64,000 nt of DNA from Tropicimonas isoalkanivorans. GTDB lineage: Bacteria; Pseudomonadota; Alphaproteobacteria; Rhodobacterales; Rhodobacteraceae. Each line of letters opens with the position of its first letter. Position 1 is the first letter of the stretch. Shown one piece after another: positions 1 to 7,354 of the stretch. Both the position numbers and the translations under genes were made by a program. The DNA lies in NCBI RefSeq assembly GCF_900112335.1, contig NZ_FOLG01000001.1:1-64000 (forward strand), given 5' to 3'. The notes under the pieces are model-generated. The model was not told the DNA's origin and did not search any database. It saw nothing but the letters and a program-made list of their open reading frames with translations.

Positions 1-217
1 GCGGTGGCCGCCAGCGTCACACCCGGCCGCGCGCTGCGCTACGCCGGGGGCTCCGCGCGCGGCCTCCTACACCAAGCGTTGGGACACTACCAAACAAGAA
101 GAAGACAGTCACGACTGGGTAACGCTCAGGCCATCTGAGATGTCTTCTTGTTTTTCAATTGATTTGATGTGGAAAACGCCCAGGCGTTACAATTGGTAGC
201 GGGGGCACCACAATAGA
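1..217. other. Window edge: GC-rich end then AT-richer spacer
   Basis: The first ~75 bases are very GC-rich and open in frame 1 to a stop at 136-138, so they could be the tail of a gene starting outside the window; the product is not recognisable. Composition then drops. A 9-bp inverted repeat (99-107 with 141-149, arms AAGAAGACA/TGTCTTCTT) and a perfect 14-bp palindrome AACGCCCAGGCGTT (175-188) lie just upstream of the 806 aa gene. They could be regulatory or mark an element boundary; nothing proves either. Confidence 0.4.
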
Positions 218-2638
218 ATGACAACCCGTCTTTCAGGTACAACAAGTCTTCGCCCGATACGCTTTGGCTTCTTGGTCCGTCCAAGCGACAAGAAATCCGT
301 CAGCCGCATCATGCGCTGGTCCACATGTCTTTGGGGTGGGCGTTGCAACCCGATTATCCCGGTAGGTCGCTACCCGGCGCACTGGCGATCAAGTGAGCCT
401 TTTCTTCGCAAGCCAGACAGGGAAGTTGCACGAGACTACATGCGCTTTTTTGAGCCAGACATCATTGTTGAGGCGGAGCCAGGCTTAGCGGAGTCAATTG
501 GCTTCGATGCTGTTTCCAACTCAAGTTTGGAATCGCAGCTTATATCACTTGATGAACTCCACTCGAAGAAATGGACCGGCCATCGGATGGACCTGTACGT
601 TGGTCAATCTGTGGTCGACATATATCAAGCCGACTATGAGGCGCGGCATCAATTTGTTCTTCGAGAAGATGTGCCAGCGCTTTTGTTCAAGGAAGATCGG
701 CTGGCGCCACTTGTGGAGGCAATATTCGGCGCATTTCCGAGAGACGAGGATGCAGACTATTTCAAGAAATTCTACGAAAACGCCTATTCTCCGAAGTTGG
801 CAGCCGCAGGTCCGGATACCTGGCTGTCGGTTTTTGAAGGTAAGGCAAAGCCGCCATTTTATCCGACCTTCTTGGACTTGGAAATTGAACCCAAGACTCG
901 TAGAGAAGCGACGTTTTTCATATTTGATCACACCAAGACGAGCGACTTGATCGACTACTGGAATACTAGGCTTTTTGAGACGCCTGTGTTCCCAGTTCCG
1001 CTGTGTTGGCTGGACGAATTGAAAGGCTTTGTCTCAAAAGCGATCAACTCCAATCATCGTCCGATCCCGAACAACAGCTTTGGGACAATGTTTACCAGCC
1101 AGGTGGTTTTCGCTCGGAGCGTCAAAGAGGAGGTTGCGAAGGCTGTCGTTGAAGTGTTCTCTTCTGATTGTCCCGACGGTTCCTTTTTCATTGGTCGCTC
1201 CACGCATCCTAAACACACCGATGACTGGCATGGACCTAGATGTGCGCGTCACAGCGTCAAGTCAGATGAGGCCCGCTTGTCTCTGGAAGTCGAAGGAGGA
1301 TCAGTCTCGTTTCCCATGCCATATCCCAAGTTTGCCGAGAGATTTGGCGGCGGACGTTATCGCTGGGCAAATGTCGTCAACCTAAGCGCACACGGTCCGA
1401 GTGACATGGCACTCTGCTACCCTTCAAATATCGAGGACCGCACCTTTCCGCACCTTGCGATGGGGCAGCAGGGTCCGATTGTTTCACGCGAAGGTTGGGT
1501 TCTTCTTGAACACTACCATGAGAGCAGCGGCTATCTGCGAATAGACTCGGGTACAGATGCCATTTGTCGTTGGCTGAAGAAGAAGGGAATTGAGGCTAAG
1601 CCCTCTTCCGCCGGTCGTATTGCGTCACAAATGGTTGAGAAGCTTGCATCCCTTCGTGCCGCTGACTTGATCGCGGACAAGGATACGATCCAGATTTTGA
1701 ACAAGATGGCGATGCAGGAACGTACAAGCAATTCGAAGTCTACGTCCAATACCAAGACATTTGAAGGTCGAACTGCAGATACCGGACGATGGCACGAACT
1801 TATAAAGAAGAGGGCGAAGAACACCCTTCGCTTTCGAGTTTCGCTTGAGCAGTTCACGAGCCGAGGCATCTTAAAGTTGGGTCTTGGGCTGAATTGCCCA
1901 CACTGTACCCACAGCAACTGGTACGGACTTGATGGAGTCGATTACATCGTAACCTGCGAACGCTGTCTTAAGGAATTTTCATATCCGCAGGGCAGCAAGG
2001 AGCCACGCTGGAAGTACCGTGTGACCGGGCCATTTTCTGTCCCAAACTTTGCTGAAGGTGCCTACGCTGTAACGCTTACGCTAGCCACGTTTGCGAAGAG
2101 CCTATCTCCAGTTGGAGACATAGGCATGACCATGACCACCGGTTTGAACCTCAAGTGCGACGCATTTGAACGGGAGATTGATTTCGCCTTTTGGTACCGT
2201 AAAGAGCGAATGCTCGATCAAAAAGGCGAACCGCATTTTGTTGTTGGTGAAGCCAAAAGTTTTGCAGAGGAAGCGATCGAGAAGGGCGATCTTGAAGCGC
2301 TTCAAGTGGTGGCAAAAGAACTCCCTGGAACCGTATTGGTCGTATCAGTTTTGAAAGAGAAATTCTCGGAAAAAGAAAAGCGGCTGTTGGAGAAGCTGGT
2401 TCGTTGGGGTTGGGTATCGGTTGAAGGGCGTATGAGAGCACCTGTGATCATGCTGACAGGCGTTGAACTCTTCGCTGACTGGACGGTTGAAAAGTCATGG
2501 CAACAGAAAGGAGCTCCGTACCCGGCTGACGCTGACAGGAGCGTATTTTCAGATTTGGAATTGTTTGCGTTGGAGACGCAGCGCATCCACCTAGGCATCG
2601 ACTACTATGACGAGCTTAGGAAGAGGCGCCGAACCTAA
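218..2638 (+). CDS. Large zinc-ribbon protein with PD-(D/E)xK-like nuclease motif; candidate defence protein
   Basis: 806 aa protein of unrecognised family. Near the N-terminus is a striking LWGGRCNPIIPV segment in a basic context (about residues 38-50). The middle third has no motif I recognise. A zinc-ribbon candidate, CPHC (560-563) and CERC (580-583), is followed by FEREIDFAFW with D655 and then GEAKS with E678 and K680. The order acidic D, spacer, E-x-K inside alternating hydrophobic strands is the signature of PD-(D/E)xK nuclease folds. The gene is visibly AT-richer than its neighbours and sits alone against the 3' end of tRNA-Asn, the usual integration side for islands. Nuclease activity and an anti-phage role are inferences; a DNA repair or structural role is possible. 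The ATG at 218 has only a weak GCGGGGG-type RBS. Confidence 0.65.
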   Translation: MTTRLSGTTSLRPIRFGFLVRPSDKKSVSRIMRWSTCLWGGRCNPIIPVGRYPAHWRSSEPFLRKPDREVARDYMRFFEPDIIVEAEPGLAESIGFDAVSNSSLESQLISLDELHSKKWTGHRMDLYVGQSVVDIYQADYEARHQFVLREDVPALLFKEDRLAPLVEAIFGAFPRDEDADYFKKFYENAYSPKLAAAGPDTWLSVFEGKAKPPFYPTFLDLEIEPKTRREATFFIFDHTKTSDLIDYWNTRLFETPVFPVPLCWLDELKGFVSKAINSNHRPIPNNSFGTMFTSQVVFARSVKEEVAKAVVEVFSSDCPDGSFFIGRSTHPKHTDDWHGPRCARHSVKSDEARLSLEVEGGSVSFPMPYPKFAERFGGGRYRWANVVNLSAHGPSDMALCYPSNIEDRTFPHLAMGQQGPIVSREGWVLLEHYHESSGYLRIDSGTDAICRWLKKKGIEAKPSSAGRIASQMVEKLASLRAADLIADKDTIQILNKMAMQERTSNSKSTSNTKTFEGRTADTGRWHELIKKRAKNTLRFRVSLEQFTSRGILKLGLGLNCPHCTHSNWYGLDGVDYIVTCERCLKEFSYPQGSKEPRWKYRVTGPFSVPNFAEGAYAVTLTLATFAKSLSPVGDIGMTMTTGLNLKCDAFEREIDFAFWYRKERMLDQKGEPHFVVGEAKSFAEEAIEKGDLEALQVVAKELPGTVLVVSVLKEKFSEKEKRLLEKLVRWGWVSVEGRMRAPVIMLTGVELFADWTVEKSWQQKGAPYPADADRSVFSDLELFALETQRIHLGIDYYDELRKRRRT

Positions 2639-2808: not shown

Positions 2809-2883
2809 TGGCTCCGGCGGTAGGGATCGAACCTACGACCAATTGATTAACAGTCAACTGCTCTACCGCTGAGCTACGCCGGA
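2809..2883 (-). tRNA. tRNA-Asn(GTT)
   Basis: 75-nt cloverleaf with the CCA encoded. The acceptor TCCGGCG pairs with CGCCGGA, the anticodon stem-loop reads TTGACTGTTAATCAA with anticodon GTT, and the T-arm contains GGTTCGATCC. Its 3' end faces the AT-rich 806 aa gene, so it is a plausible integration target, although no second copy of the tRNA 3' end is seen inside the window. Confidence 0.95.
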
Positions 2884-5371: not shown

Positions 5372-7354
5372 ATGAACATCAAAGACGTGACCGGGCACAT
5401 TCGGCAGGCCAGGAACGTCACCTTCATCATCGGCGCAGGTGCTTCGATCAGCGCGGGCATCCCGAACGCGCGGGACCTCGTTTGGCGCATCCGGAGGGAC
5501 AATTCGCACTGCCTCGGCCATCTCGATGAGGCCGGGCGGAACGACTACGGCAAGGCGATGGCGGCGCTGTCGCCGGGAGATCGGGAGGCGCTAATCCAGC
5601 CCCTCCTGGACGAATCGCGGCTCAACTGGGGGCATGTCGCTCTGGCCTGCGTGCTGTTGCAGCCGCAAGTGCGCCGCGTGCTGACATTCAACTTCGATTT
5701 CCTGCTGGAACGCGCTTTGGTGCTGCTGGGGGAGCATCTGCCGGTCTATGATTTCGGCGTATCGCCAACGCGCGAGATCCAACGGCTTGCCGATAAGGCG
5801 ATCGTCCACCTGCATGGCCAGAGTTATGGCTTGCGCCTGCTCAACTCGGAAGGTGAGACCGCAGATCACGCTCGGGAACTGGGGCCGTTGCTGTCGGACA
5901 GCCTGCGTAACCACCTGACTGTTGTGATCGGCTACAGCGGCAGCGTTGACGCGGCCTTTCCCAGCATGGTCGAGGCCTACAATTCCATGTTTCCGTTGCT
6001 CTGGCTCGGCCATGATCGCGAACCAGCCGACCACCTCGAACCGCTTCTAGGGAAGGACTACGCGACCTATGTCGGAGGCTGCGATTTCGACCGGGTGATG
6101 ATCGAAATTGCGCGGGGCCTCGATTGCTGGCCGCCGGTGATCTTCACCAACCCGCCAATGCACGTGCGCCAGTTGTTAGGAGAGATGCCCGATTTTCCAG
6201 TCTGCAACAAAGCCGGTCCGGACGTTCTCAGTGAAACGCGACGGAGGCTCGGCGAGGCGGCGGACAGCTGGGAGGCTGGGCGCTCCATAGAAGAGCAGGC
6301 AGCGGATGCCTTCCTCGCGGGCGATGCAGCGCCAGACCTAGACCTGAGCTTAACATCGGAAAAACTCCGAGAGTTCGTGGCATGGAGCCTTGTCAACGAA
6401 GGGGTTTCTCTCCGTACGGAGGCCGAAGCGCTCGACGGCGTTGTGCGGTCAGAAAAATTGGCGGAAGCCTGCGAAAAATACGAGGCTGCTCTCAAGATCA
6501 AAACGGACATGCACGCTGCCCTCAACAATTGGGGAAATGCTCTTGCCGCGCAAGCCGTGGCCCTCAAGGGCGCTGAGCGGTTGAAGAAACTTGCCGAGGC
6601 CCGCGAAAAGTACGCGGAGGCGATTGCGATAAAGCCGGATCATGACGATGCGTTATATAACTGGGGAATTGCGCTGCTGGACGAGGCCATGGCGATGGAT
6701 GGTGCGGCCCGGTCGGAAAAACTGGATGAGGCCTGCGCCAAGTTCGCGGCGGCACTGGAGATCAAACCGGACGACCATGCAGCTCTCCACAGTTGGGGAT
6801 ATGCACGTGTGGAGCAAACGAGGACCGTCGGGCGAACTGAACGGTCAGAGAAACTCGCTGAGGCTTGCGCAAAGTACGCGGAAGCGACTGCGATAAAGCC
6901 GGACAAACACGAGGCGCTCACCAATTGGGGCGTTGCATTGGCCTTGGAGGCCGTAGAGCTCAACGGATCCGCCCGGGCTGACAAATTCACTGAAGCTCGT
7001 GAAAAGTTCGAAGTCGCGCTGAAAATTAAGCCGAACGATTACGACGCGCTCGCCAATTGGGGCGCCTCTTTGGTGAGCGAGGCCGAAGCGCTCGACGGGG
7101 GCGCCCGTGCGGCGAAGCTGGCTGAGGCGGAGGAAAGGATCTGTGAGGCGGAGGCGATCTCCGGCAAACCGAGTTACAATCTCGCCCGTGTTTACGCCCT
7201 TCTCGGGGAGGTTGTAGCGGCGCTGGACAAGTTGGAGGCCTGCGCGATCGCCGAGACACTTCCGAACACGGCGGCGCTGAAGGCGGATTTGGAGGCTCTG
7301 CGAGGTGAGCCTCGGTTTAAGGCGTTTCTAAATCGAGACGGCGGAGCCGGGTGA
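5372..7354 (+). CDS. SIR2-like domain fused to TPR repeats; candidate NADase defence protein
   Basis: 660 aa. Residues 15-230 form a SIR2-like Rossmann domain: GAGAS at 21-25 followed by AGIP, TFNFD with N107 and D109, and VHLHG with H148, the position of the sirtuin catalytic histidine. From ~370 to ~610 there are about five degenerate TPR-like units with a near-regular ~50-residue period, each marked by ALxNWG, an EKLxEA helix and IKPD. This architecture, an NAD-binding or NAD-degrading head on a TPR sensor, is known from SIR2-type anti-phage proteins that deplete NAD+; function here is inferred. The start has a strong RBS (GGAGAGGAGG). It is a single-gene insertion between housekeeping genes, ending 3 nt from the convergent aminotransferase. 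Confidence 0.8.
   Translation: MNIKDVTGHIRQARNVTFIIGAGASISAGIPNARDLVWRIRRDNSHCLGHLDEAGRNDYGKAMAALSPGDREALIQPLLDESRLNWGHVALACVLLQPQVRRVLTFNFDFLLERALVLLGEHLPVYDFGVSPTREIQRLADKAIVHLHGQSYGLRLLNSEGETADHARELGPLLSDSLRNHLTVVIGYSGSVDAAFPSMVEAYNSMFPLLWLGHDREPADHLEPLLGKDYATYVGGCDFDRVMIEIARGLDCWPPVIFTNPPMHVRQLLGEMPDFPVCNKAGPDVLSETRRRLGEAADSWEAGRSIEEQAADAFLAGDAAPDLDLSLTSEKLREFVAWSLVNEGVSLRTEAEALDGVVRSEKLAEACEKYEAALKIKTDMHAALNNWGNALAAQAVALKGAERLKKLAEAREKYAEAIAIKPDHDDALYNWGIALLDEAMAMDGAARSEKLDEACAKFAAALEIKPDDHAALHSWGYARVEQTRTVGRTERSEKLAEACAKYAEATAIKPDKHEALTNWGVALALEAVELNGSARADKFTEAREKFEVALKIKPNDYDALANWGASLVSEAEALDGGARAAKLAEAEERICEAEAISGKPSYNLARVYALLGEVVAALDKLEACAIAETLPNTAALKADLEALRGEPRFKAFLNRDGGAG

Follow-up and report, generated by a model that had tools for sequence, protein, structure and literature searches.

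A putative PD-(D/E)xK-type nuclease with a zinc ribbon and a possible defence role, located at the end of a tRNA-Asn-integrated element in Tropicimonas isoalkanivorans

The stretch of DNA analysed here (the window) comprises 64,000 nucleotides from Tropicimonas isoalkanivorans and begins contig C15 of that genome. Near its left end, an intact open reading frame (ORF) with an ATG start encodes a protein of 806 aa (Table 1). A sequence-only reading of the window had described this protein as pairing a zinc ribbon with a PD-(D/E)xK-like motif, and the ORF and all residues concerned (CPHC...CERC at 560-583, D655 and E678-A-K680) were recovered in the translation of 218-2638, in which LWGGRCNPIIPV occupies residues 38-49. 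The deviating composition noted in that reading was also found, with a GC content of 0.511 for the ORF against 0.646 for the whole window. Of 247 equally long slices taken at steps of 250, one was at or below this value, and every such slice starting at position 2900 or beyond had a GC content of at least 0.601. The ORF had further been said to abut the 3' end of a tRNA. This holds for a tRNA-Asn gene on the minus strand, the 3' end of which (2809) consequently faces the end of the ORF at a distance of 170 bp.

Table 1. Features at the left end of the window (positions in the window)
Feature	Position	Strand	Evidence
End of a multi-copy insertion sequence; the contig starts here and the other end closes contig C8	1..91	.	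100% identical copies
8-bp target duplication AAACAAGA, which also precedes the insertion sequence on C8	92..99	.	Junction sequences
3' remnant of the partner gene (441 aa), covering residues ~406-441	92..199	+	C15:89-196, E 5.8e-16; L016 reading
Gene of the 806-aa protein	218..2638	+	ORF, translation, residue conservation
N-terminal signature W39-GGRCNPIIPV, within the uncharacterised first ~540 residues	332..364	+	G41 and D81 invariant in 14/14
Zinc ribbon CxxC-x16-CxxC, residues 560-583	1895..1966	+	Four Cys in 16/16; sub-threshold zinc-ribbon matches in single relatives
PD-(D/E)xK-like core E653-x-D655 ... G677-E678-x-K680	2174..2257	+	E653, D655 and E678 in 16/16; K680 in 13/16
tRNA-Asn (GTT), integration target	2809..2883	-	tRNA-Asn and the same downstream gene, without the ORF, in relatives
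Attachment-site copy in tRNA-Asn, right end of the element	2809..2855	.	47 bp identical to C8:208634-208680

The second copy of the tRNA-Asn 3' end, on contig C8, is the left attachment site. An integrase gene (C8:208821-209945), with matches to Arm-DNA-bind_3 and Phage_int_SAM_1 above the Pfam cut-off, was located 140 bp inside it, followed by ORFs with Prim-Pol-like (below the cut-off), DUF5906 (above the cut-off) and DUF3800 domains and by a gene referred to here as the partner gene. A direct repeat of the tRNA 3' end and an adjacent integrase, the two marks of a tRNA-integrated element, were both present. The element most likely spans from C8:208634 through the contig break to position 2855 of the window, giving ~16 kb, to which the unassembled middle of an insertion sequence has to be added, and the 806-aa gene is the last gene of the element. 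Judged by its gene content, the element may be a phage satellite or a prophage remnant. The gene that follows the tRNA here was found in eight relatives. In six of them a tRNA-Asn is no more than about 110 bp away from it, in one it is at 2.3 kb, and in the eighth stretch there is none; none of the eight stretches around this gene contained a match to the family of the 806-aa protein. The gene on the far side of the element, on C8, was present in one of the eight, and the empty site was seen from the tRNA side only. Outside the element, the window holds a 660-aa ORF (5372-7354) with an N-terminal SIR2-like domain and C-terminal TPRs, which matched the PADLOC models for pAgo-associated SIR2 and PDC-S65 and is a candidate for a separate defence gene.

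The distribution of the family was surveyed in genomes, plasmids and viruses. In a set of 84,980 species, each represented by one genome, close relatives were found at four loci, in Palleronia (L002), Roseobacter (L003), Roseicyclus (L004) and a member of the Minwuiaceae (L005), with best-segment identities to the window protein of 92-94% for the first three and 52% for the last. Three of 72,556 plasmid records matched (Photobacterium, L007, 31%; Bradyrhizobium, L008, 22% and partial; a weak match in Sphingomonas, L009), as did none of 50,697 phage records. Viral contigs yielded one relative (L010, 32%), and two further viral scans returned the contig of L010 again or nothing. In searches of whole genomes, the family of the host gave 2 of 295 (the own genome and a weak broken match), its class 1 of 385 with profile A1 (the own genome) and its phylum 5 of 398 with profile A2 at E 0.01. 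The more diverse profile A6 gave 3 of 78 in the class of genome G751 and 9 of 301 in the order, the host's own genome being among the nine; all these counts take in the own genome wherever it was searched, and some partial genes. When L032 was used as seed, three plasmid records were retrieved, two from Burkholderia glumae and one from Piscirickettsia salmonis. The second Burkholderia record (H11) and the weak Sphingomonas match are outside the loci analysed here, and a match in genome G013 (24 bits, one internal stop) was dropped because it contained no ORF of at least 220 aa. From these counts the family is rare, patchy and widespread, with members in alpha-, beta- and gammaproteobacteria. 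In a tree of 14 members, the window protein groups with L002-L004, next to L005 and then L007 and L010; L055 and L008 fall outside these, and L032, L053, L054, L038 and L039 make up the other side. The deep order of this tree is unsure because the branches are long.

The 806-aa gene is under purifying selection, with dN/dS values of 0.15 against L002, 0.21 against L004 and 0.13 against L003 (first 760 codons). The Roseobacter copy (L003:10001-12313) stops at 770 aa, although its tblastn match spans residues 1-806, which indicates either a frameshift or a sequencing error. Another member, L056:8246-9322, is truncated at 358 aa and lies after a 124-aa ORF; by eye, it adjoins an ORF resembling an IS3-type transposase. 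The presence of several broken copies fits a costly gene, and decay as well.

The upstream partner gene was found to be interrupted in T. isoalkanivorans. Its first ~408 codons are on C8 (C8:219906-221186, E 7.8e-241) and its last ~33 are in the window. Both junctions run into repeat ends, with AAACAAGA flanking both sides, and the gene is thus broken by an insertion. The 91 bp at the start of the window are found with 100% identity at six places in the genome (window included), as is the end of the insertion sequence on C8 (C8 included, some copies being shortened by contig ends). Related terminal repeats, GGTAGTG, occur at both junctions, and a transposase fragment on C8 resembles IS256; we take the insertion sequence to be IS256-like. 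C8 and C15 very likely join, given the partner gene that they share, the duplicated 8 bp and the two attachment sites. The 806-aa gene is now located downstream of the insertion sequence.

Accordingly, the description of the protein as a stand-alone effector does not match the state of its nearest kin. In Roseobacter (L003), an intact partner ORF of 441 aa ends 18 bp ahead of the family gene; in Roseicyclus (L004), the partner region consists of two ORF pieces of 105 and 208 aa; and in Palleronia (L002), an insertion-sequence-like ORF is found at the partner's place. Upstream of the more distant members L005, L007, L010 and L054, the partner is missing. The first interpretation, right as to the motifs and plausible as to function, lacked both the partner and the element, most of which lie beyond the window. 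Comparison with L003 gave a dN/dS of 0.10 for the partner over 407 codons, from which it appears to have been under selection until recently. A single-protein search of the 295 genomes of the host's family found the partner in the own genome only. A homologue with 34% identity over 99% of the length is encoded on an Azospirillum plasmid, and two Rhodococcus plasmids encode homologues of the N-terminal third. By eye, the Azospirillum homologue (454 aa, L011:8935-10299) lies between phage-like ORFs and an integrase-like ORF and near a DUF2971-like ORF; no family nuclease was found among the ORFs listed at this locus.

Residue conservation was counted across 16 members, i.e., 14 treated as full length, among them L003 (entered as such despite ending at 770 aa), and two C-terminal fragments; fragments without the whole region (L035, L037, L056 and L058) were excluded. 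Overall identity among these members is as low as 16-20%. Nevertheless, C560, C563, C580 and C583, which form the two CxxC knuckles of the zinc ribbon, and E653, D655 and E678 were identical in all 16, window included. In the 14 members treated as full length, N567 was invariant along with these seven residues, as were G41, D81, P192, D243, W248, N249, P402, G426, S463 and G466, while W39 and N44/P45 of the N-terminal signature differ in distant members. In PD-(D/E)xK nucleases, E-x-D is separated by some 20 residues from a hydrophobic run followed by G-E-x-K. The order and spacing of the conserved D and (D/E)xK in the family are right for this pattern. Conservation across the family thus bears out the zinc ribbon and the PD-(D/E)xK-like motif, for both of which the profile evidence is weak. 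We consider that the 806-aa protein is probably a PD-(D/E)xK-type nuclease whose nuclease domain is preceded by a large uncharacterised N-terminal part and a zinc ribbon.

Profile searches gave this assignment little additional weight. The 806-aa protein had no match at E 1 in Pfam, PADLOC, NCBIfam or the PDB sequences and none at 0.1 in PHROGs, in agreement with the earlier remark, made on the large N-terminal part, that no family could be named; this applies to four libraries and the PDB sequences. The C-terminal part of the window protein alone gave no Pfam match even at E 10, and no significant match of the full protein to a known PD-(D/E)xK family profile was found. When the C-terminal parts of 11 members were compared with Pfam, the sub-threshold matches were to zinc ribbons, with a best E of 0.0016, to Hjc in two members, of which the better reached 0.065, to REase-ARP at 0.082 and to DUF4143 at 0.12. 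Families unrelated to nucleases scored as well or better (DUF6214, 0.0042; DUF1450, 0.0077; tRNA_bind_3, 0.014), which makes the Pfam evidence for a nuclease weak. With PADLOC at E 0.1, six of seven other members or fragments gave nothing and the fragment L036 gave 12.7 bits (E 0.031). Searches of the PDB sequences with alignments A1, A6, A7 and A9 returned nothing, or matches at the level of zinc ribbons or of chance, and NCBIfam gave nothing useful. No title or abstract describing the family was found in the open-access literature, nor any match to four protein accessions of relatives; within that scope, the family is apparently undescribed.

Structure prediction had been proposed as a check of the nuclease core. 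AlphaFold2 models were obtained, but with mean pLDDT values of 39.2 for the full protein (five-row alignment) and 48.1 for the C-terminal part alone they are too poor to confirm such a core. In the full model, the C-terminal region consists of a helix (614-629), strands (637-640, 658-661 and 674-678), a helix (689-701) and a further strand (706-711). This order is compatible with the alpha-beta-beta-beta-alpha-beta core of PD-(D/E)xK proteins, at a confidence that allows nothing beyond compatibility. In the C-terminal model, the zinc-ribbon stretch (about 555-594) reached 52-65 and the core (about 595-684) 26-38, with most core strands missing.

The protein had been proposed as an anti-phage or anti-plasmid effector, and the genomic context of its relatives agrees with this: members are located in an integrated element, a putative prophage and plasmids, and some neighbours are recognised by PADLOC. 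No library names the family itself as one of nucleases or of defence. Homologues confined to housekeeping contexts, which would have spoken against the proposal, were not what we observed. The plasmid of L007 carries TraI and TrbB genes, and L038 follows three tyrosine recombinases on a conjugative plasmid. L005 starts about 160 bp past a tRNA-Arg, with no room for a partner, and L037 overlaps a DUF2130 ORF by 4 bp. In our reading, L054 is located among ordinary chromosomal genes. PADLOC scans of hand-picked neighbours, run without a random-gene control, gave matches at L008, L039 and L003. In Bradyrhizobium (L008), the surrounding cluster contains IetA, IetS, AbiJ, PDC-S64 and an annotated PrlF-YhaV pair; the Piscirickettsia plasmid (L039) carries an MkoA-like gene and a ZorD/Dpd/DISARM-like helicase nearby; and 5.5 kb downstream of L003 lies a SIR2 gene (L003:17963-19378) that matches the ThsA and PDC-S25 models. 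The same scans gave nothing of note for hand-picked neighbours at L004, L007, L032 and L037 or for two ORFs of the own element. By eye, the SIR2 gene at L003 is near ORFs resembling phage structural genes.

In two members, L032 and L053, a STAND-like ATPase ORF is located upstream with a 9-bp gap (L032:530-4210 and L053:318-3998). The ATPase of L032 matched AAA_16 at E 0.0011, below Pfam's cut-off, and the ORF of L053 is in two pieces. The large ORF upstream of L056 was considered as a further STAND gene and rejected, as its translation looks like a ribonucleotide reductase; it was not grouped with L032 and L053. A common ancestry of the partner's N-terminal domain and the N-terminus of the STAND-like ATPases, suggested by a pattern seen by eye, was also dropped (hhalign probability 4.7%).

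These settings bear on whether the nuclease might serve the mobile element itself, in excision, replication or competition with a helper phage, rather than defend the host. The integrase, the DUF5906 ORF and the sub-threshold Prim-Pol ORF, in what is possibly a phage satellite or prophage remnant, would suit such a role. So would L010, which follows MuB-like ORFs and in our reading lies in the early region of a Mu-like prophage. Other members, however, are found among chromosomal genes, beside a tRNA-Arg, in a putative defence island and on plasmids of conjugative and other kinds, and such unrelated settings fit poorly with a job in the life cycle of one element. We therefore regard a service to the element as rather unlikely.

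It is more doubtful still that the protein is a nucleic-acid-binding regulator or scaffold, in which a nuclease fold has lost or is losing its activity. Several members are broken, and three of the 16 have T in place of K680 (L032, L053 and L054, the first two being those with the STAND-like partner, whose coordinates are given above); from their sequence, these three may be inactive. On the other hand, E653, D655 and E678 are kept throughout, and K680 is kept in 13 members including the window protein and its near kin. A toxin-type cargo restrained by its partner, acting in abortive infection or addiction without direct cutting of invading DNA, would agree with the two-gene unit in L003 (also in L004, although its partner is split in two) and with the annotated YhaV toxin gene adjoining L008, but is similarly improbable, because the gene is intact here while the partner is broken, so that the partner is no indispensable antidote, and no partner was seen upstream of L005, L007, L010 and L054.

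We thus return to the reading of the 806-aa protein as a metal-dependent nuclease on a mobile element, defending against phages or other mobile DNA, a proposal from the sequence to which we give about an even chance. The defence function as such was inferred from context and is held with the same middling confidence. This reading is favoured by the residues invariant in 16/16 members, the purifying selection, the attachment-site repeat with its integrase, the patchy distribution and the defence neighbours. Against it count the missing library name, the lack of a usable model, T680 in three members and the chromosomal setting of L054. In the mechanism that we propose, the target would be held or sensed by the zinc ribbon together with the large N-terminal region, and cleavage of nucleic acid would fall to the C-terminal domain (roughly residues 614-750, with D655, E678 and K680 as catalytic residues). 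The nuclease would be activated or aimed via the N-terminal region, to which an upstream partner is added in some lineages; its target would be phages or other mobile DNA, and the gene would travel as cargo of the tRNA-Asn element. The 441-aa partner of the nearest relatives, which contains a GGPDGGRD domain, would at a guess be a sensor or regulator. With an intact nuclease gene and an interrupted partner, this strain may have a system that is silent, altered or able to work without the partner; we infer that the break weakens or alters it.

A bolder and distinctly tentative idea is that a single defence effector, built of the N-terminal WGG region, the zinc ribbon and the PD-(D/E)xK domain, is coupled to upstream genes that differ with the lineage and encode a GGPDGGRD-domain protein, a STAND-like ATPase or a DUF2130 protein, or to no such gene, with the N-terminal region acting as a docking or sensing module that serves several alarm systems. 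If this coupling is true, the strain represents a natural insertion-sequence break of one partnership. The intact partner of the L003 type and the naturally broken one here make the partner's role directly testable. Should the protein prove to be a defence nuclease, its family, as yet unnamed, is one that the defence models tried here missed, and the large N-terminal region of unassigned fold may be the recognition part.

Among known systems, the family resembles the PD-(D/E)xK nucleases of the Hjc, Mrr and NERD types in the motif, i.e., E-x-D, about 20 residues, a hydrophobic run and (G)E-x-K. Unlike these, it is fused to a zinc ribbon and to an N-terminal region of ~540 residues without known relative, and has no significant profile match. 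Similar to Mokosh, IetAS, Thoeris and STAND-type systems, it is accessory and mobile, is found near such genes at some loci and has an ATPase-like or other gene upstream, whereas neither the window protein nor its 441-aa partner matches a PADLOC model. P4-like and PICI-type phage satellites are reported to carry defence cargo (PMC9122126). The element described here shares with them an integrase, DUF5906, cargo at the far end and insertion at a tRNA, a likeness drawn from gene content. Overall, the conserved family would best be explained as one of mobile, partner-swapping defence nucleases.
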